64,000 nt of DNA from NCBI GenBank assembly GCA_031835245.1, contig JAVKOQ010000049.1, positions 186,001 to 250,000 on the forward strand, read 5' to 3'. This document shows positions 18,757-61,049 of the stretch, in pieces. A model generated the notes under the pieces. That model made no database searches. It saw only the letters and a list, made by a program, of their open reading frames with translations, and was not told where the DNA came from. This stretch comes from Balamuthia mandrillaris. Taxonomy: Eukaryota; Discosea; Longamoebia; Balamuthiidae. The position numbers and the translations under genes were made by a program. Position 1 is the stretch's first letter. Every line of letters begins with the position of its first letter.

Positions 18757-18926
18757 TTTGAACCAATCAAATTCGTCCATTATAGAATTGGCTCTTTGAT
18801 TTGATTTTTATTATCGGACAACCCAGAGAGAAGAAAAAGCCGTTATTTTCTTCTTTATCAAACCAAAAGCTCCGACAACACTAACCACACACACACACAC
18901 ACTTGGTCTTCCCTTTAAACAACCCA

Positions 18927-20339
18927 ATGGCTCACGTACTCGCCGGCTCGAACGACTTGGAAAAGCTGGAGGACCTCTCCAGCAAGACCTACAAGGAACA
19001 GGCCATTTGGTTCCTCAATGCCTTTTGGGACAAGCACAAGGAGGAGGCGGAGCGCCTGTGGAAGTTCAAGCACCAGTGCGACGAGCTGGACCACGCCAAA
19101 AAGTCCGAGGGCTGCGCGCTGGACGAGCTGCAGGCCCACCGCTTCTTGGAGAAGTTCCAAGAGACCATGACCGTTCAGTCCATGAGAGACAAGCTGCGGT
19201 CCACAGGAGCCATCGGTGCCAAGGTCAAGCTGGTCCCCTTGATCCACATCCTCATCATCCGTTTCAACGTGGACTGGCATGAGCTGGTCAATGCTCCCCA
19301 AGGCAGCAAGGAGGAGATCGACAGAGCCCAAAAGCTGTTTGACGAGGTGCAGGCCGCTTTCCAAGAGGCCGAGGCCCGCGCAGAGGAAGCCGCTGCTGCC
19401 TTGAAGGAAGCTCAGGCAAGAGAGGCTGCTGCCAAGGCCAGAGAAGCCGACGCTCTCGCTCGCGAGGCGGATGCCAAGGCGAGAGAGGCGGAAGCCAAGG
19501 AGAGAGAGGCGGAGGCCATTGCCAGGGAGCAAGAGGCCAAGGCCAGAGAGGCGGAAGCCATTCAGAGAGAGGCCGATGCCAAGGCCAGAGAAGCCGACGC
19601 TCGTGCCAACGAGGCCAAGGCCAAGGAGCAGGAGGCCGAGGCAGTGGCCAAGGAGGAGGAGCTGAGGGCAGCCAAGGAGGAGCAGGAAGCGGCGTTGGCG
19701 GAGGTGAAGGCCCAAGAGGATGCCTACAACAACAAGACGGCAGAGCTGAAGAGAGCCAGCGAGGAAGGCGGTTTGGTCTCTCGCAACAAGGCCAAGAACG
19801 AGCTGGCCCAACACTTGCAGGAGGACCCTCTCCCCTTGCGTCGTGCCAAGATCACCCTGGAGGCTGCTGTGAAGAAGGCTGAGAAGGCTGCTCAGATCGC
19901 TGCTGATGCTCGCTCTGCTGCCGAGGCCTCCGCCAGAGAGGCCGAAGCCTCCAGAGCCGCCGCTGAGAAGTCGGCAAGAGAGGCGGAGCAAGCTCGTGCC
20001 GCTGCCCAAGCCGCCGCTCGTGAGGCCGAAAGGGCTCGCGCCAGCGCCGAGGCAGCTGCTCGCGAGGCCGAGGAAGCCAGAGCCGTCGCCGAGCAAGCCG
20101 CTCGCGAGGCCGAGCAAGCCCGCGCCGAAGCGGAGGAGGCCAGGAGACACTCGGAGAGGGCCAAGGAGGCGGCCGAGGCTGCCTTGGAGGAGGCCAAGCG
20201 GAAGCTGGAGGAGGCGGAGGCCTATCTGGAGGAGGCCAAGAAGACCCTGCCCGAGGGCCAGATCTGGTGGATGGAAAGAGAGCTGCACGAGAGGAGGGCC
20301 TACTTGCCGCAAAGCAAGGGAGGCTTCCGCCGAAACTAA
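18927..20339 (+). CDS. ABP34-like actin-bundling family protein, copy A
   Basis: Intronless, 470 residues, starting at MAHVLAGSNDLEKLE. N-terminal globular part: YKEQAIWFLNAFW, DELQAHRFLEKFQETMTV, then LRSTGAIGAKVKLVPL where the Dictyostelium 34-kDa calcium-regulated actin-bundling protein has an EF-hand; the acidic ligands are absent here. Next, two long Ala/Glu/Arg coiled-coil stretches flank a constant block (AYNNKTAELKRASEEGGL, EDPLPLRRAKITLEAAVKKA). The end is IWWMERELHERRAYLP. The N-terminal and C-terminal landmarks place it in the ABP34 family by recall. Actin bundling is inferred; calcium control is doubtful. High GC, no introns and strong codon bias suggest high expression. Confidence 0.8.
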   Translation: MAHVLAGSNDLEKLEDLSSKTYKEQAIWFLNAFWDKHKEEAERLWKFKHQCDELDHAKKSEGCALDELQAHRFLEKFQETMTVQSMRDKLRSTGAIGAKVKLVPLIHILIIRFNVDWHELVNAPQGSKEEIDRAQKLFDEVQAAFQEAEARAEEAAAALKEAQAREAAAKAREADALAREADAKAREAEAKEREAEAIAREQEAKAREAEAIQREADAKAREADARANEAKAKEQEAEAVAKEEELRAAKEEQEAALAEVKAQEDAYNNKTAELKRASEEGGLVSRNKAKNELAQHLQEDPLPLRRAKITLEAAVKKAEKAAQIAADARSAAEASAREAEASRAAAEKSAREAEQARAAAQAAAREAERARASAEAAAREAEEARAVAEQAAREAEQARAEAEEARRHSERAKEAAEAALEEAKRKLEEAEAYLEEAKKTLPEGQIWWMERELHERRAYLPQSKGGFRRN

Positions 20340-20465: not shown

Positions 20466-23400
20466 TTAGTTCTCATTCTTGGTGGCCAAATAGGAGGTAA
20501 ACATGCTCTTCAGCTCTGCCAACTCCTCGCGAGCGCTCTTCAGTTCGCTCTCGAGCTCCTGCACCTTGTTGGACAATACTTCCACGGCAGCCCTATCCGC
20601 TCTCCTCAGCTCCATGGCGCTGGTGTCCGTGACCGTTCCTTCGACATAGACGTTGCCTTTGATGTAGAGGTCGCCAGTGTCGTCCATCATCAAAGAGGTC
20701 TCATGGGAGTCACAGCCGTTGTTTGTGGAGAAGGCGCCCGTGCCGATGGCGAAGATGGGGGTGCCGCTGCCCGTGAGGCTCTCAGCGGTTGCGTTGTTGC
20801 AAACGCCAAAGACGACGCCACCAACGGTATTGGTGCGGACATTAACGCCGTGGGCAAAGGAGGCAGTGGCCAAGGCCTCCACTTTACCAAGGTGGGCTGA
20901 TGATGAAAAGAAGGAAAACATTTAAAACAACAGCTAACAACCAAGAGATGCATAAAACAGAGGAGAGAAAGGGAGTCCAGAGGGGAGAAGAGGACACAAT
21001 GAGGGAACGGGAGAACGTAAAGAAGAAGGACAGCAGTACCTAGTCCAGACGCGTGAGCACCATCAGCAAACGCTTCAAGAGTACCGTTAAACAAAGCTGA
21101 ATGAGAAAAAGCATGGAGGTGTTATAAAGTTATAAACACTGCTTGTCTGAAAAAAGAAAGAGAGATACCAGCGCCCATGGCAATTGAGCCAAATCCTTGC
21201 GACATGATTGTACCACCTTCAATAGCTGATTGAGAGCAAAGAGGAGGACGTGAGTTAGGGGAAGGAGAGGGAGAGGGAGAGGGAGAGGGAGCGTTTACCT
21301 CCACCAGCAGCGAATGCGCCATCGCTCAAGGCCACAATTGCGCTTCCATTTCTGGCTGGAAACGGAAAGAAAGACCGCAAGAAGTGAATAAACAAGAAGA
21401 AAAACTAAACAGAATGTTGACAGATAACAAGGAATAATAAAACAAGTCAAAGGGATGGTACATGAGCCTATGGCAACAGATCCGTTGCCTTCAGAGTAAA
21501 TGCCGGAATTGCGAACAGCTGTTAGGAGTATTATTAGAAACACGAAGCAAGGCGTGTTGAAAAACAAAAAAAAAAATGTGAAAGTAAAAGAAATAAAAAT
21601 GCGAGAGCTGCTTGCAAAAATAATTCTAACATACCCTCGCCAGCTGCAAAGGATCCCCAGCCCAGCGATACCAACGAAGAAGACTGGTAAGCTGAACGAA
21701 TGAGGCAACACGTTAGCAAAAGAAGGCATCTTTCTCATCCAGCAGCAAGGAAGGGAGCCAGTAACGTACATTCTCCCATAGCTATAGAGCCGAAGTTCCC
21801 GGAAAGAATCTCACTGTTCTCGTCGGCTTTAAAACGTATACGAATTCGTTTGCAAGCTCAGTACAATCAAAGCAAAAACCAATAATAAAGCAAAATTGGA
21901 GGAGCTTACCTTCTCCGTAGGCTAATGCTCCGGACTCGTTGGCAAAAATCCTTGAGCCGTCAAGTGCTGCAACAAAGAATGTACAAGAGTTAAAGAATGC
22001 AATTATCAACACATAAAACGCAAATGGCAAGAAGAAAGAGCAAGAAGAATGAAGAACGAAGAAGAGAGAAGAAGATGAAGATGAAGAAGCAGGACAAAAA
22101 GAAGATGAAGGACAATAACGCCATAAGACAGCAACAACAAAGCAAGCAAAATCCAAAACACCAAACGGGCAAAAAAAATAGTAAATAGAAAAAGTATGAC
22201 GCAAAGAGCATGTACCTGAACCAATGGCAAACGAACCGTAGAAGCTGTTAGAAATAATTTCACCGACGTCCTCGGCTGGGGCGAAAGATGTTAAGGCACA
22301 AACAAAACACGCTCACAAATGAACTCCACAAACGCACCATAGCCGAAGGCAAATGTGCCGTCGCCAAAAGCACGGATGATACTGTCGTCGTCGGCTAGAA
22401 CAGAAAATCAAATGAGTTATTTTTTCTTTTTTGCGTTTATTAATCGTCTGTTGTTTGATACGTACCAGATCCAAAAGCAAAAGCACCAGTGTCCAACGAC
22501 TCAATAACCGAACGTTCATCAGCTGTAGGTAATTGCATGGCCACATTAGAAAGAGAGGGAAGTAGGGTTAGAGCAGAGAAACCAAGAGGAGAAAAGCAGG
22601 GAACGAGAAGAATGAGCATGAACACAAACCGCTGCCCATAGCGAAGCTTCCCGTGGCATTCGCCTTCAGCATTCCTCCCGCCTCAGCTAAAAGTGTTTCA
22701 GTTACAAACAAAAACTGATGAAAGCCAAAGACAAAAAATGACGAACCGAGACCCATGGCAAATGATCCAAGGCCGTTGGACTCTATTGTGCCGTTTAACG
22801 CTGCATTGCAGTACAGTTAATTATCTTTCTTGTTCATTTCTTATTGCACCTCTCATTTGTCTTACCATTGCCCAGAGCAAAGGCACCGAATTCCGAGGCT
22901 CTCACGGTCGCATTGGTTGCTTTCAAGTTGTGTGGAGGGACGAGGTAAGAGCGTGCAACTTTTTGAAAAAGAACAAAAACGAGTGGATCACTAAAAACAG
23001 CATACCGACACCCATGGCTACAGCGCCACCTGATGTTGCTGAGAGAGAGCCACCATTCTCCGCTAATAATTATGGTTCAGAATTGTTTTTGTCACAAAAG
23101 TAAAAAACACAACGTACAAGAACAAGACTAAGAAGAAGCACAATAATAACAAAACGGCCACAGCCACGACTTACCCAAACCAGCGGCAATAGAACCACGT
23201 CCATCAGACAATAGATCAGACTGACCCCCTCTAGCTGTTTTGTTGAGAGTCAGCTTCATAATGAGAAGGAGGTTTGTTCAACTGTTGTTTGTTTGTGTAC
23301 CCTGGCCCATCGCAATTGAGCCACCCGCGCGTGACCTCAAAGTGCCCCCTGAAGCTGTAAACAACAAAATAAATGAATGAACACAACGGCGGGAATAAGA

Positions 23401-25146
23401 AAAGTTACAAACTAACCAAAGCCCATTGCAAACGATCCTGGACCATCGGACACAATAACACCACCATAAGCTAAGAGAAGAGGCGGAAGGAGAGAGCGAG
23501 ATAGAGAGATGTTGAGTGTCAGCACCGGTTTTTTAGGGCAAGCACATTATATTTTGTTCTTTTTCTTCTGTTGCTTAATCTTCTGCATTTCTGTTTCCTT
23601 CTTGCAAAATGTTATAACTCACCATCACCCAAAGCGAACGCTCCAAACCCATCAGCCTCGATGGTGGAGTCATCATCAGCTATATAAATATGTAAAGCCA
23701 GCAACAAGAAAGGGAGTGAAAGATTAGAAGGAAGAAGAAGAAGAAGAAGAAGAAGAAGAAGAAGAAGAAGAACAAGAAGAAGAACAAGAAGAAGAAGAAC
23801 GCAGAAGAAGAAGAAGAACAAGAAGGTCACGAAGATTAAGAAGGAGAAGAACGCAGAAAGAAAAAACAACAAACCAAAGCCCATTGCGACACTGCCAGCC
23901 TTACGCGAGAAAATTTCGGAACTGTTGTAAGCTGAAGGTTTGAAAAGTAAAGAAGTATCGATTATTTATGTGATATTGCAAGGGTGCAACTGGTTTAAAC
24001 AACAACAGGTGAGAAGACGCACCATCACCCATGACAATCGATCCGTATGACTCGGCCACCAAGAGGGAATTCCAGTCGGCTGTGAGTCAAAGCAAGACGA
24101 GCTTAAGAATGAAGAGAAAAGAACTACAAAAAGAGGACAATAGCCCAATGGCAGAGGGATAACAAACCAATGCCAGCTACAAAAGCGCCTGCACCTCGGG
24201 CGGACACTAAAGCACCCTCAAAGGCTGCATAACAACAAAGTAGCCCAAAAGAATAACATTCAAGATGGTTAATAGGAACAACCTAGAGTGGGTTCATGGT
24301 TCCGAAGCTTTGGACAGATTGCGTACCTAGCCCAAATGCAGTGCTGCCGTCGTAAGTTGCTTCAAGTAAACTGTTATTCTTTGCTAGACGGACACAAGGT
24401 GAACAAGTGAAACAAACACAAAGAGAGAAGCAGCAAAGAACAAGACCAACATGACCGAGAACAAGAGTTAGTAATTCCAGTGAAAGAATATTGATACGAT
24501 GATCCTAACCAAAACCAGCAGCGAAAGAGCCTTGTCCCTCGGCGGCAGTGCTCAAACCAAAGGCAGCAGAATAGAGCCCGATGTTCTGTGGGTCCCATTG
24601 ATCGTTTGCCACGGAGCCTGCTCGGAAGGCAGCTCGGCTTCCATACCACAACATACGTGCTCCTGTTCATTTTTTTTGACGAAAACATAAAAAAAACGCA
24701 AACAAACGTTCAGAAAACTTTCGAAAAAAAAACAACAAATGTGATGCGTGAAGGAAAAGACACAAACGTAAAAACGCGAGAGAGAAGAGGGAAGCTGTAC
24801 CAGGGCCAGAAGCATCCCACGCTAGCCCGTCAACATCTGTGTTGTTCTCATTAACGTAGGAGCGCGCGTACACGGATCCTCCCTGCAATCTGTAGGTGCT
24901 GTTCTCAAAGACCTGCCATGCACCGCTCAACTCGAAGAGGGTCGCCAGCGATTCGCAAAGGTTCTGGTGGTCGGGGCAAACGAAGAGGGTACCGTTGGTG
25001 GACATTCGGAAGGCAACCTCACCTTCGTGCTGGATGATGAACTCGTTGGGGTTCTCCTCCACACAATGAGGGGCGCCGATATGAGCGGCCGTAAAACCCA
25101 ACAAACAGATCACCAACAAACCTAAAGATGTACTCTTCGTCATCAT
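20466..25146 (-). CDS. Secreted protein with trimeric-adhesin (YadA-like) head repeats
   Basis: The ATG at 25144-25146 starts a signal peptide (SLGLLVICLLGFTAA). The first exon ends in an N-terminal cap; the second (about 24511-24662) reads ARMLWYGSRAAFRAGS and SAAFGLSTAAEGQGSFAAGFG, typical of bacterial left-handed beta-roll head domains. Then come about 22 exons of ~57 nt, each one repeat of 18-20 residues with consensus A-x-x-[GNS]-[GS]-x-[IL]-x-x-x-x-x-G-[SA]-[FIV]-A-x-G. The last exon gives a linker (GDLYIKGNVYVEGTV) and a coiled coil (ELESELKSAREELAELK) as stalk. There is no membrane anchor and no autotransporter barrel. Expected: a trimeric extracellular fibre. Function is unknown; origin from a bacterial gene is possible. 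Confidence 0.82.
21040..24385 (-). repeat. Array of ~22 micro-exons, one protein repeat each
   Basis: Micro-exons lie at roughly 24328-24385, 24170-24227, 24023-24080, 23875-23932, 23624-23681, 23417-23471, 23301-23357, 23176-23236, 23006-23065, 22867-22920, 22747-22802, 22630-22688, 22467-22524, 22340-22396, 22216-22276, 21911-21968, 21770-21827, 21635-21691, 21463-21520, 21297-21356, 21168-21226 and 21040-21097. The ones I checked begin and end in phase 1 (G|CT), so exons can be lost or duplicated without frameshift. Introns are 60-250 bp and unlike each other; one holds a long GAA tract (23730-23815). Confidence 0.85.
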
Positions 25147-26319: not shown

Positions 26320-26547
26320 TTTGCTTTTTCTCTTTTTTTTTTTTCAAACCATTCAGGACGACATGAATCTAAAAATCGAGACGACCCGAGTAGTCTTTTG
26401 CCAAAATTTTTAAGAGGGTTCATTTTAAGGTGATTGCAATTTCGCACAATCGATCTACCCCTCAGCCCCGTTTTTGGTTTTTTTTTCGTTCTCGTCAAAC
26501 TATTGCCAACATAACAACAACACCAGCTACACTACAGCAACCCCCCC

Positions 26548-27801
26548 ATGGCACACACGTTGAACGGCTCGAACGACTTGGAGAAGCTGGAGGACCTCTC
26601 CAGCAAGACCTACAAGGAACAGGCCGTGTGGTTCCTCAATGCCTTCTGGGAGGACTTTGCCAAAGATGAGGCGGAGCGCCTGTGGAAGTTCAAGCACCAG
26701 TGCGACGAGCTGGACCACGCCAAGAAGGCCCAGGGCTGCGCTCTGGACGAGCTGCAGGCCCACCGCTTCCTCGAAAAATTCAACGAGACCATGACCGTCC
26801 AGTCCATGAGAGACAAGCTGCGGTCCACAGGAGCCATCGGTGCCAAGGTCAAGCTGGTCCCCTTGATCCACATCCTCATCATCCGCTTCAACGTGGACTG
26901 GCACACCCTGGTCAACGCCCCCCAAGGTAGCAAGGAGGAGATCGCCAAGGCTCAACAGCTGTTGGACGAAGTGCAGGCCGCCTTCCAGGAGGCCGAGGCC
27001 CGTGCAGAGGAGGCCGCTGCTGCCTTGAAGGAAGCTCAGGCAAGAGAAGCTGACGCCAAAGCCCGAGAGGCGGACGCCAAGGCCAGAGAAGCCGAGGCCA
27101 AGGCCGCTGAGGCCGATGCCAAGGCCAGAGAAGCCGAAGCTCACTCCCGCGCGGAGGAGGCCAAAGCCACCGAGGCTGAGGCAGTGGCCAAGGAGGAGGA
27201 GCTGAGGGCAGCCAAGGAGGAGCAGGAAGCGGCGTTGGCGGAGGTGAAGGCTCAAGAGGATGCCTACAACAACAAGACGGCAGAGCTGAAGAGAGCCAGC
27301 GAGGAAGGCGGTTTGGTCTCTCGCAACAAGGCCAAGAACGAGCTGGCCCAACACTTGCAGGAGGACCCTCTTCCCTTGCGTCGTGCCAAGATCACTCTGG
27401 AGGCTGCTGTGAAGAAGGCTGAGAAGGCTGCTCAGATCGCTGCTGATGCTCGCTCTGCTGCTGAGGAGTCAGCCAGGCAGGCCGAGGCTGCTGCCCAACA
27501 AGCCAGCAGCGCTAGAGCAGCTGCCGAACAAGCCGCCCGACAGGCAGAGCAAGCCAGAGCCCAGGCCGAGCAGGCCAGAGCGCAAGCAGAGCAGGCCAGG
27601 CAACACTCGGAGAGGGCCAAGGAAGCAGCTGAGGAAGCGTTGGAGGAGGCCAAGAGGAAAGTGGAGGAGGCAGAGGCGTACTTGCAGGAGGTGAAGGCTC
27701 GTCTGCCGCAGGGAGCCATCTGGTGGATGGAAAGGGAGTTGCACGAGGCGAGGGCGTATTTGCCCAAGAGCAAGGGTGGTTACAACAAGAACGAGAAGTA
27801 A
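26548..27801 (+). CDS. ABP34-like actin-bundling family protein, copy B
   Basis: Intronless, 417 residues, from MAHTLNGSNDLEKLE. Same architecture as copy A, but the N-terminal domain has EDFAKDEAERLWK and the first Ala/Glu coiled coil is shorter (unit KAREAEAKAAEADA). The second coiled coil is Gln-rich (QARAQAEQARAQAEQ). The C-terminus is GAIWWMERELHEARAYLPKS plus KGGYNKNEK. Nearly identical at the DNA level to copy C 460 bp downstream, so the two are a recent tandem duplication. The EF-hand position is degenerate as in the other copies. Expected to act in the actin cortex; inference from family only. Confidence 0.8.
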   Translation: MAHTLNGSNDLEKLEDLSSKTYKEQAVWFLNAFWEDFAKDEAERLWKFKHQCDELDHAKKAQGCALDELQAHRFLEKFNETMTVQSMRDKLRSTGAIGAKVKLVPLIHILIIRFNVDWHTLVNAPQGSKEEIAKAQQLLDEVQAAFQEAEARAEEAAAALKEAQAREADAKAREADAKAREAEAKAAEADAKAREAEAHSRAEEAKATEAEAVAKEEELRAAKEEQEAALAEVKAQEDAYNNKTAELKRASEEGGLVSRNKAKNELAQHLQEDPLPLRRAKITLEAAVKKAEKAAQIAADARSAAEESARQAEAAAQQASSARAAAEQAARQAEQARAQAEQARAQAEQARQHSERAKEAAEEALEEAKRKVEEAEAYLQEVKARLPQGAIWWMERELHEARAYLPKSKGGYNKNEK

Positions 27802-28034: not shown

Positions 28035-28257
28035 CTCTCTCTCTTTCTCGCCTACCTTCCACTAGTCCTCACCGCTGTCCTCTCCTTGTGTGCACCCATA
28101 TGAAAATGAACCCTCAATGGAATTCTTTTATTGCGGTGCTTCTCCGCTGCCCCCTTTTTGTTTTTTTTTGCCGCATTCACACTCGGCACTACGCAAAACG
28201 TAACACCCGCACAACAGCAACGCGCTCGCTACCGGCAAAAACGACAACAAAAACACA

Positions 28258-29469
28258 ATGGCTCAAGTGCTGAACGGCTCGAACGACTTGGAGAAGCTGG
28301 AGGACCTCTCCAGCAAGACCTACAAGGAACAGGCCGTGTGGTTCCTCAATGCCTTTTGGGAGGACTTTGCCAAGGAGGAGGCGGAGCGCCTGTGGAAGTT
28401 CAAGCACCAGTGCGACGAGCTGGACCACGCCAAGAAGGCCCAGGGTTGCGCTCTGGACGAGCTGCAGGCCCACCGCTTCCTCGAAAAATTCAACGAGACC
28501 ATGACCGTCCAGTCCATGAGAGACAAGCTGCGGTCCACAGGAGCCATCGGTGCCAAGGTCAAGCTGGTCCCCTTGATCCACATTCTCATCATCCGCTTCA
28601 ACGTGGACTGGCACACCCTGGTCAATGCTCCCCAAGGCAGCAAGGAGGAGATCGCCAAGGCTCAACAGCTGTTGGACGAAGTGCAGGCCGCCTTCCAGGA
28701 GTCTGAGGCCAGAGCCGCTGAGGCCGCCGCTGCCTTGAAGGAGGCTAAAGCAAGAGAGGCGGACGCCAAGGCCAGGGAAGCCGAGGCCAAGGCCGCTGAG
28801 GCCGACGCCAAGGCCAGAGAAGCGGAAGCCCACTCCCGCGCGGAGGAGGCCAAAGCCACCGAGGCTGAGGCAGTGGCCAAGGAGGAGGAGCTGAGAGCGG
28901 CCAAGGAGGAGCAGGAAGCGGCGTTGGCGGAGGTGAAGGCTCAAGAGGATGCCTACAACAACAAGACGGCAGAGCTGAAGAGAGCCAGCGAGGAAGGCGG
29001 TTTGGTCTCTCGCAACAAGGCCAAGAACGAGCTGGCCCAACACTTGCAGGAGGACCCTCTCCCCTTGCGTCGTGCCAAGATCACCCTGGAGGCTGCTGTG
29101 AAGAAGGCTGAGAAGGCTGCTCAGATCGCTGCTGATGCTCGCTCTGCTGCCGAGGAGTCAGCCAGGCAGGCCGAGGCTGCTGCCCAACAAGCTAGCAGCG
29201 CCCGCGCCGCCGCGGAGCAAGCCGCCAGGCAAGCCGAGCAAGCCAGAGCGCAAGCAGAGCAGGCCAGGCAACACTCGGAGAGGGCCAAGGAAGCAGCTGA
29301 GGAAGCGTTGGAGGAGGCCAAGAGGAAAGTGGAGGAGGCAGAGGCGTACTTGCAGGAAGTGAAGGCTCGTCTGCCGCAGGGAGCCATCTGGTGGATGGAA
29401 AGGGAGTTGCATGAGGCGAGGGCGTATTTGCCCAAGAGCAAGGGTGGTTACAACAAGAACGAGAAGTAA
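28258..29469 (+). CDS. ABP34-like actin-bundling family protein, copy C
   Basis: Intronless, 403 residues, from MAQVLNGSNDLEKLE. It differs from copy B mainly by loss of one coiled-coil unit on each side and a few substitutions (SEARAAEAAAALKEA). Third-position differences are few and clustered, as expected of recent duplication or gene conversion. The central block EEELRAAKEEQEAALAEVKA is identical in the copies. A CT repeat at 29532-29567 follows the gene. Confidence 0.8.
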   Translation: MAQVLNGSNDLEKLEDLSSKTYKEQAVWFLNAFWEDFAKEEAERLWKFKHQCDELDHAKKAQGCALDELQAHRFLEKFNETMTVQSMRDKLRSTGAIGAKVKLVPLIHILIIRFNVDWHTLVNAPQGSKEEIAKAQQLLDEVQAAFQESEARAAEAAAALKEAKAREADAKAREAEAKAAEADAKAREAEAHSRAEEAKATEAEAVAKEEELRAAKEEQEAALAEVKAQEDAYNNKTAELKRASEEGGLVSRNKAKNELAQHLQEDPLPLRRAKITLEAAVKKAEKAAQIAADARSAAEESARQAEAAAQQASSARAAAEQAARQAEQARAQAEQARQHSERAKEAAEEALEEAKRKVEEAEAYLQEVKARLPQGAIWWMERELHEARAYLPKSKGGYNKNEK

Positions 29470-47169: not shown

Positions 47170-49970
47170 ATGAAGGTGCACTTTCAACCCAAAAATAATA
47201 AGGGCAAAGAAAAGGAGGACGAGGGAAGGGGAGCCGCTAAAGATGGGGAACAAGCGACGCAGCGTGCGCAAAAACAAAAGCTTCGTTCCGGCGAATGGCG
47301 GAAAGGGAGCGTTGGGGAGTCGCCGAACAAACTCATCTCATCTTCATCTTCATCTTCTTTGGTGGGACCAAAGAGGGCGAGCCAACCGCTCAGCTTAGGG
47401 CTGCGAAAGCCACAAAATGGTGCGTCGACGGAAGAGAGCGAGGCTTCTACCGGCGGTGCCGACGGGGGTGGAGGGACTGATCACGAAACGAGACAACGGC
47501 AACGCATGGACGCGGCGCTTGAGATCATGGCCAAAGAAATATCCTACATCTCTGCTCTCACTACTCTTGTTAACGTTCGTTTCTTCTTCTTTGTTCTTCT
47601 TCTTGTTCTTCTTCTTGTTCTTCTTCTGCTTCTTTTTTCTTCTTCCTGTTCTTCTTCTTGTTGTTGTTCTTCTTGTTCTTCTTCGTGTTCTTCTTCTGCT
47701 TCTTTTTTTTTCTTCTTCTTGTTCTTCTACTTCTTCTTGTTCTTCTCTGTAGCTGCTGCTTCTCCAAGTTTTTTAATCCAATTGTTCTCTGACGACACCT
47801 TTGGAATAGTGTTATTTAAAGCCGTTGCGACAAGCACGCGCATCGGAGCAAACTATCTCTGCTATCTTTGGAAACGTGGAGCTGATATTGGAGGCAAACA
47901 AAAAGTTTTTAGAGAAGCTGAAACAGTCTTCCAAAAGTTGGAACTTAGATGGCATTCGTTTAGGACCTGTTATTGATGAGTTTGTTCGTTTCTTCTGTCC
48001 ATTTTCGCCTCTTCTTAGCTCTCATTATATTGACACGTTTCTATGTTTCACAGCTGCCATGGCTTACTCTCTATGCTGATTATTGTAAATATTTTTTGCT
48101 CAAGTGAGAGAATGAGAGATGAGAGATGAGATGAGAGAAGAACGCGAACGTGTGTTAACACCTACTCTGATGATGCAGGTGCGAACTATCCTCACTCGCA
48201 GGCGTTTATTCGGAAAAAAGGATTACAATCGGAGAAGCTTGCACCTTTTTTCCAAAACGAACTTGCCGTAAAAGCCCTTCTTATAAAGTACCTTTTGCTT
48301 CCTCTCCGCTTCGCTTTATTGTTTGTTTGTTTGTTTGTTTGTTTGTTTGTTTGTTTGTTTGTTTGTTTGTTTGTTTGTTTGTTTGTTTGTTTGTTTGTTT
48401 GTTTGTTTGTTTGTTTGTTTTGTTTGTTTGTTTGTTTGTTTGTTTGTTTGTTTGTTTGTTTGTTTGTTTGTTTGTTTGTTTGTTTGTTTGTTTGTTTGTT
48501 TGTTTGTTTGTTTGGCATATCCGTTTCGAGCTATTCTTTATCCCCTTTGTTTTCTACTGTGTAATCTAACAAACCGTACATCTAGACCAGTGCAAAAGAT
48601 TCCCCAATACATGGTCATGTTTGAGGTAAGTTCACCTCCTGTTCCTCTTCTTTCGTTTTTCTTCTTCTCCTCTGCTCTGTGACAAGCTGCTCATTAGCGC
48701 TCCATTGTTGCTTCAGCGTTTATTGCGGTGGACAGATAAGGATCATGAAGATTACGCTATATTGCAGGATGCATTGTTACAGATCCGAAGAGTGGCCGAG
48801 GTCGTGGACGAGACAGTGGGCTTGCGCCAAGCCTTGGCCAAATTGCGAGATGTGATGAGCAAGCTCACCGGAAATGTTCCAGCGGTAAGCATTCGTTTTG
48901 TTTTATTTCATTGCAGGGAATGGAAGAGCTCATCGTTGGCTGAACAGGGCATCATGTGCGGAGATAACGTTTTTGTTAAAGATGGAATGATGACCAAGGT
49001 AAATTTCTTCTTTGTGTTTTCTCCACTTCTCTGTTAGCTGCCTCGCTGCTTCTCTTGTTTACATTAAATGTTCTTGTGTACCAGCAATGTCGCAAAGCAG
49101 CGAAACAGCGCTATGTGCTTCTGTTGAGCGGCATGTTGCTCTATGGCATAAAAGAACTGCATAAGTACAGAATTCGCCATTATATTTTGCTCAGTGATGA
49201 CGTGCAGATTGAAAAGTTTGTTCCTATCCCCGATATCCCTGCAAAAGGTAAGAGGTGACTCCTAGCCTCTCCAGGTCACAAGCAACTAAAAGCAAATTTC
49301 TACAGGGTTGTGCAATGCCTTCGAAGTTACAGGAAAAACCAAGTCCTTTATTCTCTGGTGTTCCACTGCGCAACAAAAAGGCATGTCACTTATTTCTCTA
49401 CTGTTTTCTTTTCTCCCCTAACATGCCTTTTATTACTTAGATGAATGGATTGAGGCCCTTGCGACCGCCCACAGCATACGTCAGCAGTATCAACATTGCC
49501 TTAGAAAACGGAAGGCTTCCATGCTCGCTCTCAAAGGTTTCAACACTTCACAAGAAGTTATTTTCCCCTCTTCTTCTCCTACGCCTGCTGTTTCTCCCTC
49601 TTCTTCCTCCGCTTCGCTTTCCACTTCCCCACAGGCCATCTGCCATCCTTCTTCTTCCTCCTCATCAGACATTACTGTTCTTGAACTTTCCACCTCTCCT
49701 GTTTGGGATCCTGACAACTTTCGGGATACCTGTCCCATCTGTGAATTGCGGTTTACTGTTCGCCGCCGCCGGCATCATTGCAGGTTTGTTTTTTCAAATT
49801 GTAGTTAATACGTGTATTTAGACCCACTGACCTTTGGCCGCTTTCACAGAGCGTGTGGCGGGCTGGTGTGCGATAGATGCTCTCCACAGCGATGCTATGT
49901 TACAGCTCTGGGCAAGTCTGCACGAGTCTGTGTCAACTGTTGCCCACCAACCTCTTCTTCGCCCACATGA
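47170..49970 (+). CDS. DH-PH-FYVE Rho guanine nucleotide exchange factor (FGD-like)
   Basis: About ten exons from ATG 47170. After a low-complexity N-terminus comes the DH domain: IMAKEISYISALTTLV, SEQTISAIFGNVELILEAN, LPWLTLYADYCANYPHSQAF and the signature LLIKPVQKIPQY split by a 298-nt intron holding a TTTG repeat. The PH domain follows (RYVLLLSGMLLYG ... QQKDEWIEAL), and a C-terminal FYVE finger (CPICELRFTVRRRRHHCRAC) with the R-R-H-H-C-R phosphoinositide site. It should load GTP on a Rho/Cdc42 GTPase at PI3P membranes. The PH intron at 49381-49440 has a GC donor. Architecture matches FGD proteins without the second PH domain. Confidence 0.92.
48317..48513. repeat. TTTG tetranucleotide microsatellite
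   Basis: About 48 copies of TTTG with one interruption near 48418-48421, inside the RhoGEF intron 48288-48585. ORFs reading Phe-Val-Cys-Leu or Asn-Lys-Gln-Thr are artefacts. Confidence 0.97.
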
Positions 49971-50201: not shown

Positions 50202-51740
50202 TTACTTGTCGACGCCTCCCTTGGCCTTGGGCAAATACTTCCTTCGTTCCTGCAACTCCCTGTCCAACCACCAGATGGCACCCTGGGGCAGGGTGTTCTT
50301 GGCTTCCTCCAAGTAGGCTTCTGCCTCTTCAAGCTTCTTCCTGGCCTCCTCCAAGGCAGCCTCAGCAGCTTCCTTGGCCCTCTCAGAGTTCTCTCTGGCT
50401 CGCTCGGCGTCAGCCCTGGCCTGCTCGGCCTCTGCTCTGGCTTGCTCTGCCTCTCTGGCAGCCTGCTCAGCAGCAGCTCTGGCCTGCTCTGCTTCTCTGG
50501 CAGCCTGTTCGGCAACAGCTCTGGCTTCCTCGGCCTCGCGAGCAGCAGCTTGGGCGGCGGCGCGAGCCTTTTCAGCCTCACGAGCAGCAGCTTGAGCAGC
50601 GGCACGAGCTTGCTCCGCCTCTCTTGCCGACTTCTCGGCAGCAGCTCTGGATGCCTCAGCTTCTCTAGCAGACGCTTCGGCAGCGGCTCTGGCCTCAGCA
50701 GCAGCCTGAGCAGCCCTTTCAGCCTTCTTCACAGCAGCCTCCAGGGTGATCTTGGCACGACGCAAGGGGAGAGGGTCCTCCTGCAAGTGTTGGGCCAGCT
50801 CGTTCTTGGCCTTGTTGCGAGAGACCAAACCACCTTCCTCGCTGGCTCTCTTCAGCTCTGCCGTCTTGTTGTTGTAGGCATCCTCCTGGGCCTTCACCTC
50901 TGCCAACGCTGCTTCCTGCTCCTCCTTGGCCGCCCTCAGCTCCTCCTCCTTGGCCACTGCCTCGGCCTCCTGCTCCTTGGCCTTGGCCTCGTTGGCACGA
51001 GCGTCGGCTTCTCTGGCCTTGGCATCGGCCTCTCTCTGAATGGCTTCCGCCTCTCTGGCCTTGGCCTCCTGCTCCCTGGCAATGGCCTCCGCCTCTCTCT
51101 CCTTGGCTTCCGCCTCCCTCGCCTTGGCATCCGCCTCGCGAGCGAGAGCGTCAGCCTCCCTTTGCTTAGCATCGGCCTCGGCGGCCAAAGCTTCAGCTTC
51201 AGCGGCCTTGGCGTCAGCTTCTCTGGCTTTGGCGTCGGCCTCTCTCGCTTGAGCTTCCTTCAAGGCAGCAGCGGCCTCCTCTGCGCGGGCCTCGGACTCC
51301 TGGAAAGCGGCCTGCACCTCATCCAACAACCTTTGGGCCTTATCAATCTCCTCCTTGCTGCCTTGGGGAGCGTTGACCAGCTCATGCCAGTCCACATTGA
51401 AGCGGATGATGAGGATGTGGATCAAGGGGACCAGCTTGACCTTGGCACCGATGGCTCCCGTCGAGCGCAATTTCTCTCTCATGGTTTGAACGGTCATGGT
51501 CTCTTGGAACTTCTCCAAGAAGCGGTGGGCCTGCAGCTCGTCCAGCGCATTTCCTTCGGACTTTTTGCCGTGGTCCAACTCGTCGCACTGGTGCTTGTAC
51601 TGCCACAGGCGCTCCGCGTTATCCTTTCCGTGTTCCTCCCAGAAGGAGTTCAGGAACCAAATGACCTGTTCCTTGTAGGTCTTGCTGGAGAGGTCCTCCA
51701 GCTTTTCCAAGTCGTTCGAACCTTGCAAAACCAGTGTCAT
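50202..51740 (-). CDS. ABP34-like actin-bundling family protein, copy D
   Basis: Intronless, 512 residues, the longest copy, ATG at 51738-51740 (MTLVLQGSNDLEKLE). The N-terminal domain is the most divergent (NSFWEEHGKDNAERLWQYKH, MREKLRSTGAIGAKVKLVPL), but the central block and coiled-coil composition match copy A. The extra length comes from added AREADAKAREAEA-type units in both coiled coils. It ends GAIWWLDRELQERRKYLPKA. The EF-hand-equivalent loop again lacks acidic ligands. Arranged head to head with copy E, 457 bp apart. Confidence 0.8.
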   Translation of the reverse strand: MTLVLQGSNDLEKLEDLSSKTYKEQVIWFLNSFWEEHGKDNAERLWQYKHQCDELDHGKKSEGNALDELQAHRFLEKFQETMTVQTMREKLRSTGAIGAKVKLVPLIHILIIRFNVDWHELVNAPQGSKEEIDKAQRLLDEVQAAFQESEARAEEAAAALKEAQAREADAKAREADAKAAEAEALAAEADAKQREADALAREADAKAREAEAKEREAEAIAREQEAKAREAEAIQREADAKAREADARANEAKAKEQEAEAVAKEEELRAAKEEQEAALAEVKAQEDAYNNKTAELKRASEEGGLVSRNKAKNELAQHLQEDPLPLRRAKITLEAAVKKAERAAQAAAEARAAAEASAREAEASRAAAEKSAREAEQARAAAQAAAREAEKARAAAQAAAREAEEARAVAEQAAREAEQARAAAEQAAREAEQARAEAEQARADAERARENSERAKEAAEAALEEARKKLEEAEAYLEEAKNTLPQGAIWWLDRELQERRKYLPKAKGGVDK

Positions 51741-52197
51741 TCTACAGGAGTTTGAGCGGAAGTAGCTAGCACGAGTGTCGGTGTGTGAAGTTGTTTTAAA
51801 ATTTGAACAATAATAAAAATAATAAGATTTGATTTTAAAAATTGGCGAATAAGTTGGCAGGAAGGACGCCGCCTCTAACGTAGTGGAGAAGAAAGCGAGA
51901 AAATGGACGGTTATTATTCTTTCGGGAGGTGAGCTCGGTTACCGTTACCTTTGAAGCTTGCTACACCGAGCGCAACGCTCTTGTTGTCCATCCAGCTAAG
52001 CAGGACCGACCGCCAAGATAGGTTGGACAGGGCCGGTGTCCGGCCATTTGATCTCATATATCCTAGCTTATATTGCCAGAGACCCCTCAAGCCCGAACTT
52101 TTGGCTTTTTGGCCGTCACTCTCTCCCCTTCTATTTTAGCGCAAATCATACAAGACTCAAGAAACGCACAGAAGAGAAGCGGGCTACGAAGTTAGAG
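51741..52197. other. Divergent intergenic region between ABP34-like copies D and E
   Basis: No gene. AT-rich 51780-51845, then a GC-richer stretch with CGAGCGCAACGCTC (51966-51979). TATA-like TATATCC at 52065-52071 lies about 130 bp before copy E. Confidence 0.45.
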
Positions 52198-53535
52198 ATG
52201 GCACAAGTGTTAACGGGAGCGAACGATTTGGAGAAGTTGGAGCAGCTGGCCACCAAGACCTACAAGGAACAGGCCGTGTGGTTCCTCAATGCCTTCTGGG
52301 AGGACTTTGCCAAGGAGGAGGCGGAGAGGTTGTGGAAGTTCAAGCACCAGTGCGACGAGCTGGACCACGCCAAGAAGGCCCAGGGCTGCGCTCTGGACGA
52401 GCTGCAGGCTCACCGCTTCTTGGAGAAGTTCCAAGAGACCATGACCGTCCAGTCCATGAGAGACAAGCTGCGGTCCACAGGAGCCATCGGTGCCAAGGTC
52501 AAGCTGGTCCCCTTGATCCACATCCTCATCATCCGCTTCACCGTGGACTGGCACACCCTGGTCAATGCCCCCCAAGGCAGCAAGGAGGAGATCGCCAAGG
52601 CTCAACAGCTGTTGGACGAAGTGCAGGCCGCCTTCCAGGAGGCCGAGGCCCGCGCAGAGGAGGCTGCTGCTGCCTTGAAGGAAGCTCAGGCCCGGGAGGC
52701 TGATGCCAAAGCCAGAGAAGCTGATGCCAAGGCCAGGGAAGCCGAGGCCAAGGCCGCTGAGGCCGACGCCAAAGCACGAGAAGCCGAAGCTCACTCTCGT
52801 GCTGAAGAAGCTGCGGCTAGAGCGGAGGAGGCTAAGGGGAGGGAAGCCGAAGCCAAGGAACGAGAAGCTGAGGCGGCAGCCAGGGAGGAGGAGCTGAGAG
52901 CGGCCAAGGAGGAGCAGGAAGCAGCGTTGGCGGAGGTGAAGGCCCAAGAGGATGCCTACAACAACAAGACGGCAGAGCTGAAGAGAGCCAGCGAGGAAGG
53001 CGGTTTGGTCTCTCGCAACAAGGCCAAGAACGAGCTGGCCCAGCACTTGCAGGAGGACCCTCTCCCCTTGCGTCGTGCCAAGATCACCCTGGAGGCGGCT
53101 GTGAAGAAGGCCGAAAGGGCTGCTCAGGCTGCTGCTGAGGCCAGAGCCGCTGCCGAAGAGTCTGCTAGACAAGCCGCTCAAGCCAGAGCGAACGCCGAAG
53201 AGTCAGCCAGGCAGGCTGCCGCTGCTGCAGAGGAGGCTAGTAGGGCCCGCGCCGCCGCGGAACAAGCCGCCCGACAGGCAGAGCAAGCCAGAGCCCAGGC
53301 AGAGCAGGCCAGAGCGCAAGCAGAGCAGGCCAGGCAAAACTCAGAGAGGGCCAAGGAAGCGGCTGAGGAAGCGTTAGAGGAGGCCAAGAGGAAAGTGGAG
53401 GAAGCGGAGGCGTACTTGGAAGAAGCAAAGGCTCGTCTGCCACAGGGAGCCATCTGGTGGATGGAAAGGGAGTTGCATGAGGCGAGGGCGTATTTGCCCA
53501 AGAGCAAGGGTGGTTACAACAAAAACGAGAAGTAA
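52198..53535 (+). CDS. ABP34-like actin-bundling family protein, copy E
   Basis: Intronless, 445 residues from MAQVLTGANDLEKLE. The frame is open upstream to 52036 but without family sequence, so ATG 52198 is preferred. N-terminus resembles copies B and C (EDFAKEEAERLWKFKHQ); the first coiled coil has an extra unit (EEAAARAEEAKGREAEAKER). The C-terminus is the same as B and C (GAIWWMERELHEARAYLPKS then KGGYNKNEK). Mosaic similarity to A/D and B/C blocks suggests gene conversion among the copies. Confidence 0.8.
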   Translation: MAQVLTGANDLEKLEQLATKTYKEQAVWFLNAFWEDFAKEEAERLWKFKHQCDELDHAKKAQGCALDELQAHRFLEKFQETMTVQSMRDKLRSTGAIGAKVKLVPLIHILIIRFTVDWHTLVNAPQGSKEEIAKAQQLLDEVQAAFQEAEARAEEAAAALKEAQAREADAKAREADAKAREAEAKAAEADAKAREAEAHSRAEEAAARAEEAKGREAEAKEREAEAAAREEELRAAKEEQEAALAEVKAQEDAYNNKTAELKRASEEGGLVSRNKAKNELAQHLQEDPLPLRRAKITLEAAVKKAERAAQAAAEARAAAEESARQAAQARANAEESARQAAAAAEEASRARAAAEQAARQAEQARAQAEQARAQAEQARQNSERAKEAAEEALEEAKRKVEEAEAYLEEAKARLPQGAIWWMERELHEARAYLPKSKGGYNKNEK

Positions 53536-57067: not shown

Positions 57068-58477
57068 TCATCCTTTTGCTGAAGACTTTTTCTTGTTTGG
57101 TTTGCTGCCTGACTTAGCAAGCCCAAAGACCACTTTGCCTACCTCACTTAGTTCGTTTTGAAAGCCGCATGCTTGGAGCAGCATGGCGATCGTCTCTCTT
57201 CGGGCTTTGGTGCATGGAGCATCCACCAATGCAGGTTGCTTTGGGAACATTTTGAAGAACTGAGCCGCCCGCATGTTGCCGCTATTGTTGGAACGTGAGC
57301 CATGTGGCATGCGTATATCCCACAAAACAACTGATCCAGCCCTCATCGGCACTCGCTTTGCAAATCGCTGGAATGGATGCGACTCTGGGAACAACACACT
57401 GTTTTGGTCTATTTCGCAAGAAAGAAAGAAAGAAAAGGTCAATACATTTCCACGCCTTGTAAAGAATTAGAAATGACAGCTAACCCCAAGCCTTCTGCTC
57501 CGTCTGACTGTGCTCGTTCTCCTTTGCCCAGGCTTCAAAGCAGTGCAGAAAACCTGGGACGCAGTGGAAACCTCCATCCTCTTCTCGGTTATCCAAAAGG
57601 TTGATGACTCCTTGAATGTGGACACCATTGGCGGAGGTGGAGTGATGAACCTGATTGTTCTCAAAGATGAAGTCATTGAGTCGATGGCGACCATACTCCA
57701 GAGCAGAGAGCTTGGGCAAGGCATGGTTGGTCTCACTAAGGAAGGCCCATGGATTCACGTCCAGATGCAAGCTTGGTGCAGTCTTCCATTGTGGCATGTC
57801 TTTCTGTTGCATCAAGTCAAGGTTAGAGCAGTTCGCCAGAAAGAAACAGAAGAAACTACACAAACCAAAGAAGAACCAAAAGGGACGCCAACAGTAGGTC
57901 TACAGAGGCCATAACGATCAATGCTTATCATCAGCTCAGTATCTTTTGTAAAGAGTGTAGAGCAAGCTTGAAGGAGCTTAGCATTTTGTCTGTTGCGAAA
58001 GGCTACTCGGGTCGTGACTGGAGCTTTGGAGGGCATGCCGTACTTTTCTATGCCAGAAGAAGGCCAGTTGCCCCATGTGCTTGGATCACTTCGTTGCCAG
58101 CGCTGTTGTAGTAGCGATCCCAGTTAGCTCAAAACACGGTTATAGAGCATACAAAACTAGGTCAAAGAACAGAGTACCTGCTTGCTTCCTTGCTCCAGCA
58201 AAGAAAAAATGTCTTCAACTGTGTCTTGACATTCTTGTGAGGAGAAAACATCTCGAATTACTACCAAGCCATATCGTTGGTAAAACTGTTGTATGGCTTC
58301 CGTCTCCTCCAAAGCAAATGATCTGATGTAGGTCGGATCGTCCTCTTCTCGTGGTAAGAGTACCGTTTGCAAAAAGAGGATATAATCTTCGTTGGCTCTT
58401 TGTTTTAGTGACTCGAGGCTTTCTTCTTCTTCTTCCTCCTCACTTTCTTCCTCACGCCTCACCTCTGGGTTTTGCAT
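57068..58477 (-). CDS. PhyH-like Fe(II)/2-oxoglutarate dioxygenase
   Basis: Four exons, ATG at 58475-58477 (a GTG three codons upstream is less likely), TGA at 57068-57070. After an acidic N-terminus come FYQRYGLVVIRDVFSSQEC (phytanoyl-CoA dioxygenase entry motif), LHLDVNPWAFL with the H-x-D facial-triad pair, GVINLLDNREEDGGFHCVPG, and RAGSVVLWDIRMPHGSRSNN with the distal His. RAAQFFKMFP may supply the 2-oxoglutarate Arg. The C-terminal tail is basic (GSKPNKKKSSAKG). Substrate unknown. About 390 residues. Confidence 0.87.
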
Positions 58478-59250
58478 CCTTTTCACTTCTGCCTACTTTC
58501 TTTTTTCTTTCTTTGTATCTTCTTCATTGCCGACTTCCTTTGTCTCCTTCAGTGAAAAAACAATAGTTGGTGCCGAAACGCTGGCGGTAAGAGACCTCCC
58601 TTGTGGCACAAAGACTTTAGTGGGGGTTGCACCACACACTGGTAACCAGCTTTGGCTGCTCATTCACATGTCTTCTTGTTCCATGGCAGGCGAAGCGACA
58701 TGCCACTATCAACCCCACCAGGTCGTCCTTCCACATGGTAATGGTCTCACACACTTCAACATTTACAATGGCCAGCATGGCTGCAACATCCCCATGGGAG
58801 TGCAGGCATGGGACGTGTTGCCTTGCTGCCTTTATTATGTGCCACTATCAGTTGTACACAAAACAGGTAATCATGCTCCAAAGTTCACCTCACTTCTCCT
58901 GACCAGGAGCTCTGGTGGCAGATCATGATGATAAAAGCATCATCATCACCATTGTCCTCTTTCATGGTGTGTGCCTTCTTTGCTTGCTTTTTCGCAGCTA
59001 AGTTCTTTTATTACCTCCAGCTGGCCTTCTCCAGTAGCAATGGCACAAGGCATTTTGTCCAGGGAGTAGTAATTAAGAAGGGACCACTGCAGTAACAGTT
59101 CTTTTCAGCTCCTTTTTCTTCTGCTGTTTTGCAATCCTTGTTTGCCGGACAAGTATAAGGTATATCATAAACATAGATACATCCAAAGGAAGAACAACAC
59201 TTGAAGTATTTGCTATAACAAACAGTTTGGTATTTCATGAAGTTGTAACA
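58478..59250. other. Intergenic, no well-supported gene
   Basis: Region between the dioxygenase start and the AT-rich block. Several short ORFs lack family character apart from the Cys-rich one listed separately. Confidence 0.45.
59011..59238 (-). CDS. Possible small Cys-rich protein
   Basis: A 75-residue ORF from ATG 59236-59238 with about ten Cys, including YFKCCSSFGCIYVYD and YTCPANKDCKTAEEK. The Cys density is unusual for chance, but there is no signal peptide, no homologous neighbour and no splice evidence. It may be an exon of a larger gene or spurious. Confidence 0.22.
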   Translation of the reverse strand: MKYQTVCYSKYFKCCSSFGCIYVYDIPYTCPANKDCKTAEEKGAEKNCYCSGPFLITTPWTKCLVPLLLEKASWR

Positions 59251-59273
59251 AAGTTATTGAGGTGCGAAAATGC

Positions 59274-59307
59274 GGAACCAAGGGAACCTGCTTGGTTCCC
59301 TGGTTCC
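59274..59307. repeat. Hairpin-forming inverted repeat at the edge of the AT-rich block
   Basis: GGAACCAAGGGAACC (59274-59288) and GGTTCCCTGGTTCC (59294-59307) face each other over a 5-bp loop; the stem has one bulged A. It is GC-rich within AT-rich surroundings. Confidence 0.7.
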
Positions 59308-59833
59308 ATAGCAAAAATTTCAGACTTAGAAAAAATTTCAACGTTCTCTAAGCCAAAATGATTGAAAAAAGGGAAAATTGATGTTTATTAATAAAAAAAA
59401 GGAATACCATGCTTTTGTTTGAAAAAATAAAAAAGGTTCTTGTAGAACTCAACATGCTCTATCCAATGAGCTTATTTACAAAGAGTAAAAATATTTTATG
59501 ACTGAGTAATTAATTTTATACATGATTTTGTATTTTAAAAATAATAGAAAATATTTGTGAAACTGACTGACAAATGGATAGATAAATAGATAAATAAATG
59601 AATAAATGAATGTTTAAAAAGTGTTTCATTAATATTGAATGAATGAATAAACAAGGGAAAAAAAATGTTCCACAACATAAAAAAACAAAACCTTGCAAAA
59701 ACAAACAACAATTAAATCAAAACAACAACTTAAAAACAAAATAAAAATTCTTCATTCTTTCCTAAACTATCATTGTTGTTGTTGCATAAATATAGCTCTA
59801 CTATCATTATTATAAAAATGATGATGATAATAA

Positions 59834-60127: not shown

Positions 60128-60359
60128 AAATGTAAGTCTTCTAAGTCTTTTATATCTTCTTTTTGAAACTTGATCTGCTACTATTGATTGAAATAAAAAT
60201 TTATATTAATTAAAAATAAAGAAAATAACTAGAAAAAGAAAGTACTGTTTTACCACTCTCCCATAATACCTATCCCTATCTCTCCTTGTATATATATTTC
60301 TTTCTTTCATTCTATTAAAGGTCTTTTTCCCTACGCCCATCGAGTTGGTGTCCGTTAGG

Positions 60360-61000: not shown

Positions 61001-61034
61001 ATTCAGCTGTGATCTGATATATAACTCATAATCA

Positions 61035-61049
61035 GGTTAGGGTTAGGGG
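61035..61049 (+). repeat. Short TTAGGG tract
   Basis: GGTTAGGGTTAGGGG within AT-rich DNA between the recombinase remnant and the intact recombinase gene. Two full TTAGGG units only. Confidence 0.6.

Follow-up and report, generated by a model that had tools for sequence, protein, structure and literature searches.

A predicted secreted fibre protein with a bacterial-type head entry, encoded one repeat per micro-exon in Balamuthia mandrillaris

Introduction

Trimeric autotransporter adhesins, such as YadA and BpaC, present a repeat head followed by a coiled coil, and the head of BpaC is described as likewise enlarged through repeat expansion (PMC9543794). A gene that recalls this layout lies on the minus strand at positions 20466-25146 of a 64,000-nucleotide stretch from the soil amoeba Balamuthia mandrillaris (Amoebozoa, Centramoebida; contig JAVKOQ010000049.1, positions 186,001 to 250,000; henceforth the window). 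Its predicted product is read here, with a probability of roughly 0.7, as a secreted protein that probably forms a trimeric fibre and descends from a surface or fibre protein of the Bacteroidota YadA_head/S74 type. The autotransporters, whose solved heads are matched by bacterial relatives of the second exon of the gene, possess an anchor barrel and 14-residue repeats, whereas the amoeba protein has no barrel and repeats of 18-20 residues, and its gene is eukaryotic and exon-modular.

Alternatively, the protein can be compared with Bacteroidota-type YadA_head proteins, which share its head entry (60% identity between the first rows of an hhalign alignment), perhaps its neck (a weak match), the neck-linker-entry order and the tandem modules seen in one amoeba paralogue, on contig C55 (contigs, loci and proteins are numbered C, L and P throughout). 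Examples are P0020 and P0010, which carry a C-terminal Peptidase_S74 domain, and P0028 (named Ferruginibacter), which lacks it. These proteins are encoded in single open frames and built of classical 14-residue turns, in contrast to the 18-20-residue repeats, 24 introns, coiled coil and missing S74 domain of the amoeba gene. Environmental and phage-type repeat proteins (e.g., P0001, P0004, P0048 and those of the viral contigs L115 and L212) agree with the amoeba repeats in period and in residue profile, but are intron-less, bear phage-type ends and are devoid of a Bacteroidota-type entry.

With regard to exon organisation, fibrillar collagen genes use arrays of 45/54-bp exons to encode a trimeric fibre, which is lengthened by exon addition, also in pairs (PMC4450265). 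An exon-modular repeat array with one unit per symmetric exon is common to collagen and the amoeba gene; collagen differs in forming a triple helix and in having neither bacterial head nor neck. Collagen exons are phase 0. Similarly, the leucine-rich repeats (LRRs) of NLRP proteins display a strict exon modularity, presented as a precondition for alternative splicing (PMC6642158). The NLRP proteins differ in being LRR proteins of human gene families. To our knowledge, their repeats and those of the amoeba have no sequence relation. A YadA head is also reported from a polinton-like virus of Paulinella micropora, as a single domain between discoidin domains (PMC12220804); it too resides within a eukaryotic genome, but in a viral gene, and the accessible portion of that report makes no mention of micro-exons. 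YadA-type genes are also on record from prasinoviruses. The literature on YadA in eukaryotes and amoebae, and on Balamuthia adhesins and genomes, yielded no description of such a protein; likewise, no eukaryotic exon-modular YadA-like protein was found, subscription papers lying mostly outside the coverage.

Gene model and protein layout

The gene model was obtained by enumerating AG..GT segments and refining their ends, the splice sites being predictions. It runs from an ATG at 25146 to a TAA at 20466, exactly the span proposed in a preliminary description of the window, and comprises 25 exons and 24 introns, all GT-AG and all phase 1. The spliced coding sequence of 2178 nucleotides (nt) is an uninterrupted frame for 725 residues. 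The introns measure 60-249 nt (median 89.5) and have a G+C content of 0.38, against 0.54 in the exons. The 22 internal micro-exons are 54 nt (4), 57 nt (16) or 60 nt (2) long and carry one repeat each, which agrees with the earlier proposal of symmetric one-repeat micro-exons at all 22 internal repeats and all 24 introns of the model. With phase-1 symmetry, the reading frame survives if any of the micro-exons is skipped or duplicated. For exon 12, an alternative acceptor was found that would move the start to 22958 and lengthen the exon to 93 nt. Exon boundaries in the following list derive from the splice model.

24801..25146, minus strand: exon 1, with start codon, signal peptide (about 25084-25146; hydropathy), N-terminal region and phase 1 end
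24510..24662, minus strand: exon 2, 153 nt, bacterial-type head entry with one YadA-like turn at its end (phmmer, hhalign)
24327..24383, minus strand: micro-exon 3, repeat 1, 57 nt
24168..24224, minus strand: micro-exon 4, repeat 2, 57 nt
24023..24079, minus strand: micro-exon 5, repeat 3, 57 nt
23875..23931, minus strand: micro-exon 6, repeat 4, 57 nt
23623..23679, minus strand: micro-exon 7, repeat 5, 57 nt
23417..23470, minus strand: micro-exon 8, repeat 6, 54 nt
23301..23354, minus strand: micro-exon 9, repeat 7, 54 nt
23175..23234, minus strand: micro-exon 10, repeat 8, 60 nt
23006..23062, minus strand: micro-exon 11, repeat 9, 57 nt
22866..22919, minus strand: micro-exon 12, repeat 10, 54 nt
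22747..22800, minus strand: micro-exon 13, repeat 11, 54 nt
22630..22686, minus strand: micro-exon 14, repeat 12, 57 nt
22466..22522, minus strand: micro-exon 15, repeat 13, 57 nt
22338..22394, minus strand: micro-exon 16, repeat 14, 57 nt
22216..22275, minus strand: micro-exon 17, repeat 15, 60 nt
21910..21966, minus strand: micro-exon 18, repeat 16, 57 nt
21770..21826, minus strand: micro-exon 19, repeat 17, 57 nt
21635..21691, minus strand: micro-exon 20, repeat 18, 57 nt
21462..21518, minus strand: micro-exon 21, repeat 19, 57 nt
21299..21355, minus strand: micro-exon 22, repeat 20, 57 nt
21169..21225, minus strand: micro-exon 23, repeat 21, 57 nt
21040..21096, minus strand: micro-exon 24, repeat 22, 57 nt
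20466..20896, minus strand: exon 25, with final half-turn, neck, coiled coil and stop
20634..20861, minus strand: neck domain (C55 neck as query; 23 of 25 genome matches at E <= 1e-7)
20499..20594, minus strand: C-terminal coiled coil of about 32 residues (heptad score, first 28 residues)

The protein thus consists, in order, of a signal peptide, an N-terminal part, the head entry of exon 2 (GARMLWYGSRAAFRAG...), 22 repeats, a neck and a coiled coil. The signal peptide, already proposed earlier, is recognised by inspection and by a hydropathy peak at residues 6-26; after residue 30, no 19-residue stretch exceeds a mean hydropathy of 1.21. The repeats, of 18-20 residues, have Ala or Ser as their first residue and close with G-[SAT]-x-[AV]-x-G-x, H-A-S-G occurring in one of them. 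A near-identical deposited protein was absent among 47 homologue matches, in a search limited by length and by the number of candidates.

Evidence that the exon array is genuine

A chance array is ruled out by the antisense and phase controls, and the array is placed beyond chance by four lines of evidence taken together, namely the antisense control, the phase of the donors, the conservation between copies and the peptides of a deposited paralogue. On the window gene, the chain finder returned 22 exons on the gene strand and one on the antisense strand, with antisense counts of 0-2 over 11 loci. In a test that assumed no phase, motifs were taken in the three gene-strand frames of 10 loci, syntenic copies included, so that the 219 motifs are non-independent. 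The nearest donor-like site was in phase 1 for 189 of them, exactly 4 nt downstream in 186; the remainder fell into phase 2 (6), phase 0 (5) or had no donor (19). At the acceptor side, 170 motifs fitted, 24 did not and 25 were without an acceptor. The deposited protein QOT17_004443 (P0002), a paralogue, holds 8 of 9 micro-exon peptides predicted by the finder, an intron being read through at the ninth.

Syntenic copies of the window gene were found on contig C529, truncated by the contig end, and on C511, which C113 overlaps at 100% over 2672 bases. The window gene and its C511 copy share 94.9% identity in exons, where 2178 sites stand beside 3 gap columns, against 90.9% and 402 gap columns beside 2352 sites in introns, and the nonsynonymous and synonymous divergences are 0.032 and 0.123 (dN/dS 0.26). 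The comparison with C529, covering exons 4-25, gave no exon gaps, 269 intron gap columns and a dN/dS of 0.37. The GT..AG pairs are kept in 24 of 24 introns in C511 and in all 21 covered in C529; intron identity alone would predict a retention of about 0.68 per intron. Sequence comparison thereby shows purifying selection between the copies.

These data also bear on the notion that the micro-exons are a decaying pseudogene or an assembly artefact. The splicing of the window gene is predicted, and possible relics occur elsewhere, in the form of stops in the entry and neck matches on C2 and in a neck match on C159, although six-frame matches may enter introns. Nevertheless, the frame stays open over 25 exons in both the window and C511, and the low dN/dS, the concentration of gaps in introns and the preservation of every compared splice site lead to rejection of the pseudogene reading and render the notion as a whole very improbable.

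Bacterial-type head entry, neck and coiled coil

The strongest link to bacteria is provided by exon 2. In a phmmer comparison with 47 homologues (best domain E 1.1e-16), it matched YadA_head proteins, often with Peptidase_S74, at identities of up to 61%; YadA_head is listed in 24 and Peptidase_S74 in 18 of the 47 matches. An hhalign comparison of nine Balamuthia entries with nine bacterial-type entries extended over 50 columns with a probability of 99.7 and an E-value of 1.2e-25, and YadA_head was detected in all nine bacterial-type members and in five of the nine Balamuthia sequences (best 5.9e-4). The bacterial entry alignment, in turn, retrieved the solved heads of BpaC (2.5e-15) and CbpF (3.1e-13) and chain 1p9h (3.2e-9), labelled Invasin in the database, which we take to be the YadA head. 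Thus, the bacterial-type head entry of the preliminary description is upheld. Relatives are encoded in 287 of 330 pattern-matching prokaryotic stretches, and the 80 that were kept belong to Bacteroidota (61) and other phyla (15) or are without phylum (4). In a tree of 103 entries and 51 columns, in which each bacterial or viral locus is represented by its best copy and the C2 and C159 entries are left out, the 15 Balamuthia rows fall on one side of a branch with a support of 74. The most economical history would be one transfer of a Bacteroidota-type gene, with the 18-20-residue repeat either already present in the donor or joined later.

The neck points weakly in the same direction. A Balamuthia neck profile, made from 23 of 24 sequences with syntenic copies included and a 24-residue piece of L023 left out, matched five of 46 homologues other than P0002 at E <= 0.01, namely P0025 (1.2e-5), P0033 (2.1e-5), P0020 (6.4e-5), P0023 and P0009. 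At the same threshold, it matched 9 of the 80 bacterial loci on which it was run (of the 287) and none of 95 viral loci. In addition, a single C55 exon comprising neck, linker and entry is collinear with the bacterial-type P0020 over 189 residues (30% identity, E 4e-16), in one comparison whose score is owed in large part to the entry. The neck appears weakly shared with bacterial YadA_head/S74 proteins. The coiled-coil stalk that had been proposed to follow the head is well supported, its heptad score over the first 28 residues being equalled by none of 2000 shuffles; coiled coils were supported in three of four proteins so tested.

The protein is neither a trimeric autotransporter, for lack of an anchor, nor a full S74 protein, as far as its sequence tells. 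The PF03895 anchor barrel was found neither in the genome at E <= 0.001 nor in the protein at E <= 10, which accords with the barrel-less layout originally described, and Peptidase_S74 is absent from the window protein. These genome-wide searches led to the rejection of an S74 chaperone or a YadA anchor in the family. At E <= 0.001, the genome has a single S74 match, outside the family loci (L213, C60:36323-36541); the open frame around it contains acidic and coiled segments and may encode a MYRF-like regulator.

The 18-20-residue repeats and their relatives

The repeats of the amoeba protein, with spacings of 19, 18 and 20 residues, follow those of intron-less environmental proteins (130 spacings of 19, 84 of 18 and 65 of 20), unlike the YadA_head class with its spacings of 7, 14, 21 and 28. 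Profiles derived from those 103 of the 161 amoeba units at seven loci that are 19 residues long and from 90 environmental 19-mers of 27 chosen proteins agree at 26.2 bits over 19 columns; in period and in the profile G-[SA]-F-A-x-G-x-A...I-x-A, the window repeats fit this environmental or phage-type class. The class comprises P0001, P0004, P0005, P0048-P0077, L115 and L212. Among 15 scanned proteins, P0002 included, no Pfam model covers the repeats, save for a sub-threshold YadA_head in P0050, and the class is possibly an undescribed fibre repeat.

It is conceivable that the repeats stem from a viral or phage fibre gene, that is, from a domesticated viral receptor-binding fibre, with the bacterial-type entry and the neck having come along or joined later. 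This origin would explain the common spacing and profile, and several further observations are in its favour: P0001, P0005 and P0049 have phage-depolymerase-like C-termini, all below the Pfam cut-off, and that of P0001 matches the tail fibre of a Rhodococcus phage; genes with such repeats are carried by the viral contigs L115 and L212, the one in L115 lying two genes downstream of an open reading frame whose sequence suggests a terminase; eight viral contigs contain the exon-2 domain; and a YadA head is reported from the polinton-like virus. Against it, a regular-expression scan of 77 homologues found none that combines the entry with at least two spacings of 18-20, the neck profile has bacterial matches and no viral one, annotated phage records contain no match to the repeat region, and low-complexity repeats can converge. 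A viral source of the repeats is regarded as unlikely. Annotated phage records searched with the bacterial entry were also without a match, and PHROGs gave nothing convincing with the window protein and, with eight environmental proteins, one weak match whose function is not assigned there. A viral scan with P0003 returned 79 loci, mostly matching its G2-type peptidase end and not its repeats.

Several results weigh against a secreted fibre protein of Bacteroidota-type YadA_head descent. PF05658 finds no match in the window protein at E <= 10 or in the genome at E <= 0.001; hence the description of the repeats as a YadA-like head, with a period that is not the classical 14, is not supported in this form. 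The repeat profile retrieved no trimeric adhesin from the PDB, the best match being low-complexity Nsp1, and the attractive explanation of the repeat as a 14-residue YadA turn with a 5-residue insertion is not claimed, the second half scoring no better than shuffles (559/5000). Exon 2 of the window alone does not match YadA_head, a Balamuthia-only exon-2 profile found no trimeric adhesin in the PDB, and the tree, with its few columns, does not give the Balamuthia branch strong support. The domains listed for P0009, one of the five weak neck matches, do not mark it as a YadA_head protein, and a database search with the neck by itself gave no match at E <= 0.001 in 129 candidates. The coiled coil of gene 2 of L011 is not significant (593/2000 shuffles as good), N-glycosylation sequons show no enrichment at p < 0.05 in L012, L013, L014, L019, L021 and L023, and the splice structure of the window gene is a prediction from DNA.

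The same null results suit another explanation, in which the repeats form a different beta-solenoid instead of a trimeric YadA-type roll and the bacterial fold is kept in exon 2 and the neck only. The repeats have no HMM (hidden Markov model) or PDB match, searches of the PDB with the whole protein or with P0052 having likewise returned no trimeric adhesin at a meaningful E-value, and their period is 19 residues as opposed to 14. On the other hand, P0003 and P0052, neither of which has a Pfam YadA_head match, join 14-residue YadA-like turns and 18-20-residue repeats in one chain (read by eye), the YadA-like turn that closes exon 2 runs straight into repeat 1 of the first micro-exon, and the half-turn G-x-x-[SA]-x-A-x-G is common to both kinds of repeat. 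A different solenoid is held to be doubtful.

Gene family in the genome

Balamuthia assemblies of 44-68 Mb are on record in a paper whose annotation made use of RNA-seq (PMC10471605). The present genome of 64.8 Mb in 775 contigs was searched with P0002, exon 2 and a neck, and the family was located at five main loci: C48 (the window, with copies C529 and C511/C113), C27 with C202, C55, C20 with C550 and C310, and C85 with C98. Weak or broken matches occur on C2 and C159. A lone gene is thereby rejected, and the preliminary picture of a single gene with a singular organisation gives way to that of a family. The arrays hold 22 micro-exons in the window, 26 in L011 (two genes), 19 in L012, 19 in L013, 12 in L014, 22 in L016, 17 in L019, 50 in L020, 47 in L021, 47 in L022 and 2 in L023, in total 283, or 146 with one copy per locus. 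To reach these counts, head-entry pieces (two in L013, five in L014, one each in L020, L021 and L022) were subtracted, as was a false, serine-rich unit in L019; both the window gene and L016 keep their first micro-exon, which is counted as real. Outside the genome, protein searches of about 8000 candidates each returned no named eukaryote other than Balamuthia, badly predicted micro-exon genes being liable to escape them.

Exon duplication, suggested as one route to the array, is directly visible in paralogues. In C550, C20 and C310, 54-nt exons alternate with 57-60-nt exons, L021 contains tandem units of about 295 nt, and introns two positions apart in L020, L021 and L022 have mean identities of 0.76, 0.70 and 0.68, with single values reaching 1.00, whereas shuffling gives 0.55-0.57; all intron comparisons covered introns shorter than 200 nt. 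Because such introns are alike, exon pairs must have been copied with their introns, and the sequences show that this took place recently. The window gene has no tandem units of this kind, and its introns two apart are about as alike as shuffled ones (0.44 and 0.45); it may have undergone the same exon-pair duplication long ago. The original statement that the introns are unlike holds for the window gene and fails for the C20, C550 and C310 paralogues. From head entry to neck, the three contigs span about 7.8 kb (C550), 7.1 kb (C20) and 7.4 kb (C310), and since their 3' parts align at 84-89%, they are taken to be copies of one locus with different array lengths.

On C55 (L013 and L014; C55:219012-232167, minus strand), 11 necks are present, 10 of which continue in one open frame, with neither stop nor frameshift, into the following head entry; by its reading frames, this is a many-headed fibre gene of about 11 head modules in series. 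P0002 matches C27 piecewise at 70-100% identity, with 5 of the 10 pieces of the gene at 94% or above, six-frame matches overrunning the exon ends; QOT17_004443, gene 1 of C27, is mis-annotated, an intron being read through and one micro-exon missed. Compared with C27 (L011), C202 (L012) shows both first exons but a single neck match, and its first gene may lack the 3' half.

Secretion and proposed working

The window protein has 13 N-glycosylation sequons where shuffling predicts 6.1 (p 0.0055), and sequons are enriched at p < 0.05 in the paralogous loci L011, L016, L020 and L022 and in none of eight intron-less environmental proteins. In the proposed working, a bacterially derived fibre-head protein would have been made exon-modular in the amoeba. 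Three chains would associate via the coiled coil, and the repeats would stack as layers of a parallel beta-roll in which each exon supplies one layer, such that an exon gained or lost would alter the length by a single layer and leave the frame intact. Probably N-glycosylated, the fibre would either be released or be retained in the surface coat or the cyst wall, and there may bind glycans, matrix or surfaces. Function is the least certain step of this explanation, followed by the exact fold of the 18-20-residue layer.

Neighbourhood in the window

An F-actin bundling family is represented in the window by five single-frame copies at 18885-20339 (+), 26515-27801 (+), 28204-29469 (+), 50202-51938 (-) and 52000-53535 (+), with PF18060 matches from 4.8e-7 to 9.6e-20 and Ala/Glu/Arg-rich segments of variable length. 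By sequence, these copies, which flank the fibre gene on both sides, constitute a local family. A simple tandem array at 48287-48570 encodes VCLF repeats in three frames, the G+C content falls to 0.38 within 58000-62000, and an open reading frame at 61184-62209 (-) has a weak Myb-like match below the cut-off.

Significance

It is tentatively proposed, at somewhat less than even odds, that the amoeba took up a bacterial fibre-head protein, routed it into the secretory pathway and made of it a collagen-like exon-modular system, in which a layer corresponds to a micro-exon, growth proceeds by duplication of exon pairs with their introns, array lengths vary between copies and alternative splicing could tune length. 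If true, the collagen strategy of building trimeric extracellular fibres would have arisen independently in a unicellular eukaryote, with intermediate stages visible. The old array of the window gene, with its dissimilar introns, and the young arrays, with introns up to identical, would make the process readable from sequence. Two questions become testable in one family, namely how a transferred bacterial repeat protein without introns acquires its exon modularity, and whether such modularity offers a general path to fibres that can be extended. At the same time, the family directs attention to proteins of the surface or coat, probably secreted and glycosylated, in an amoeba responsible for fatal brain infection, and these proteins merit consideration for diagnosis and for surface and cyst biology.

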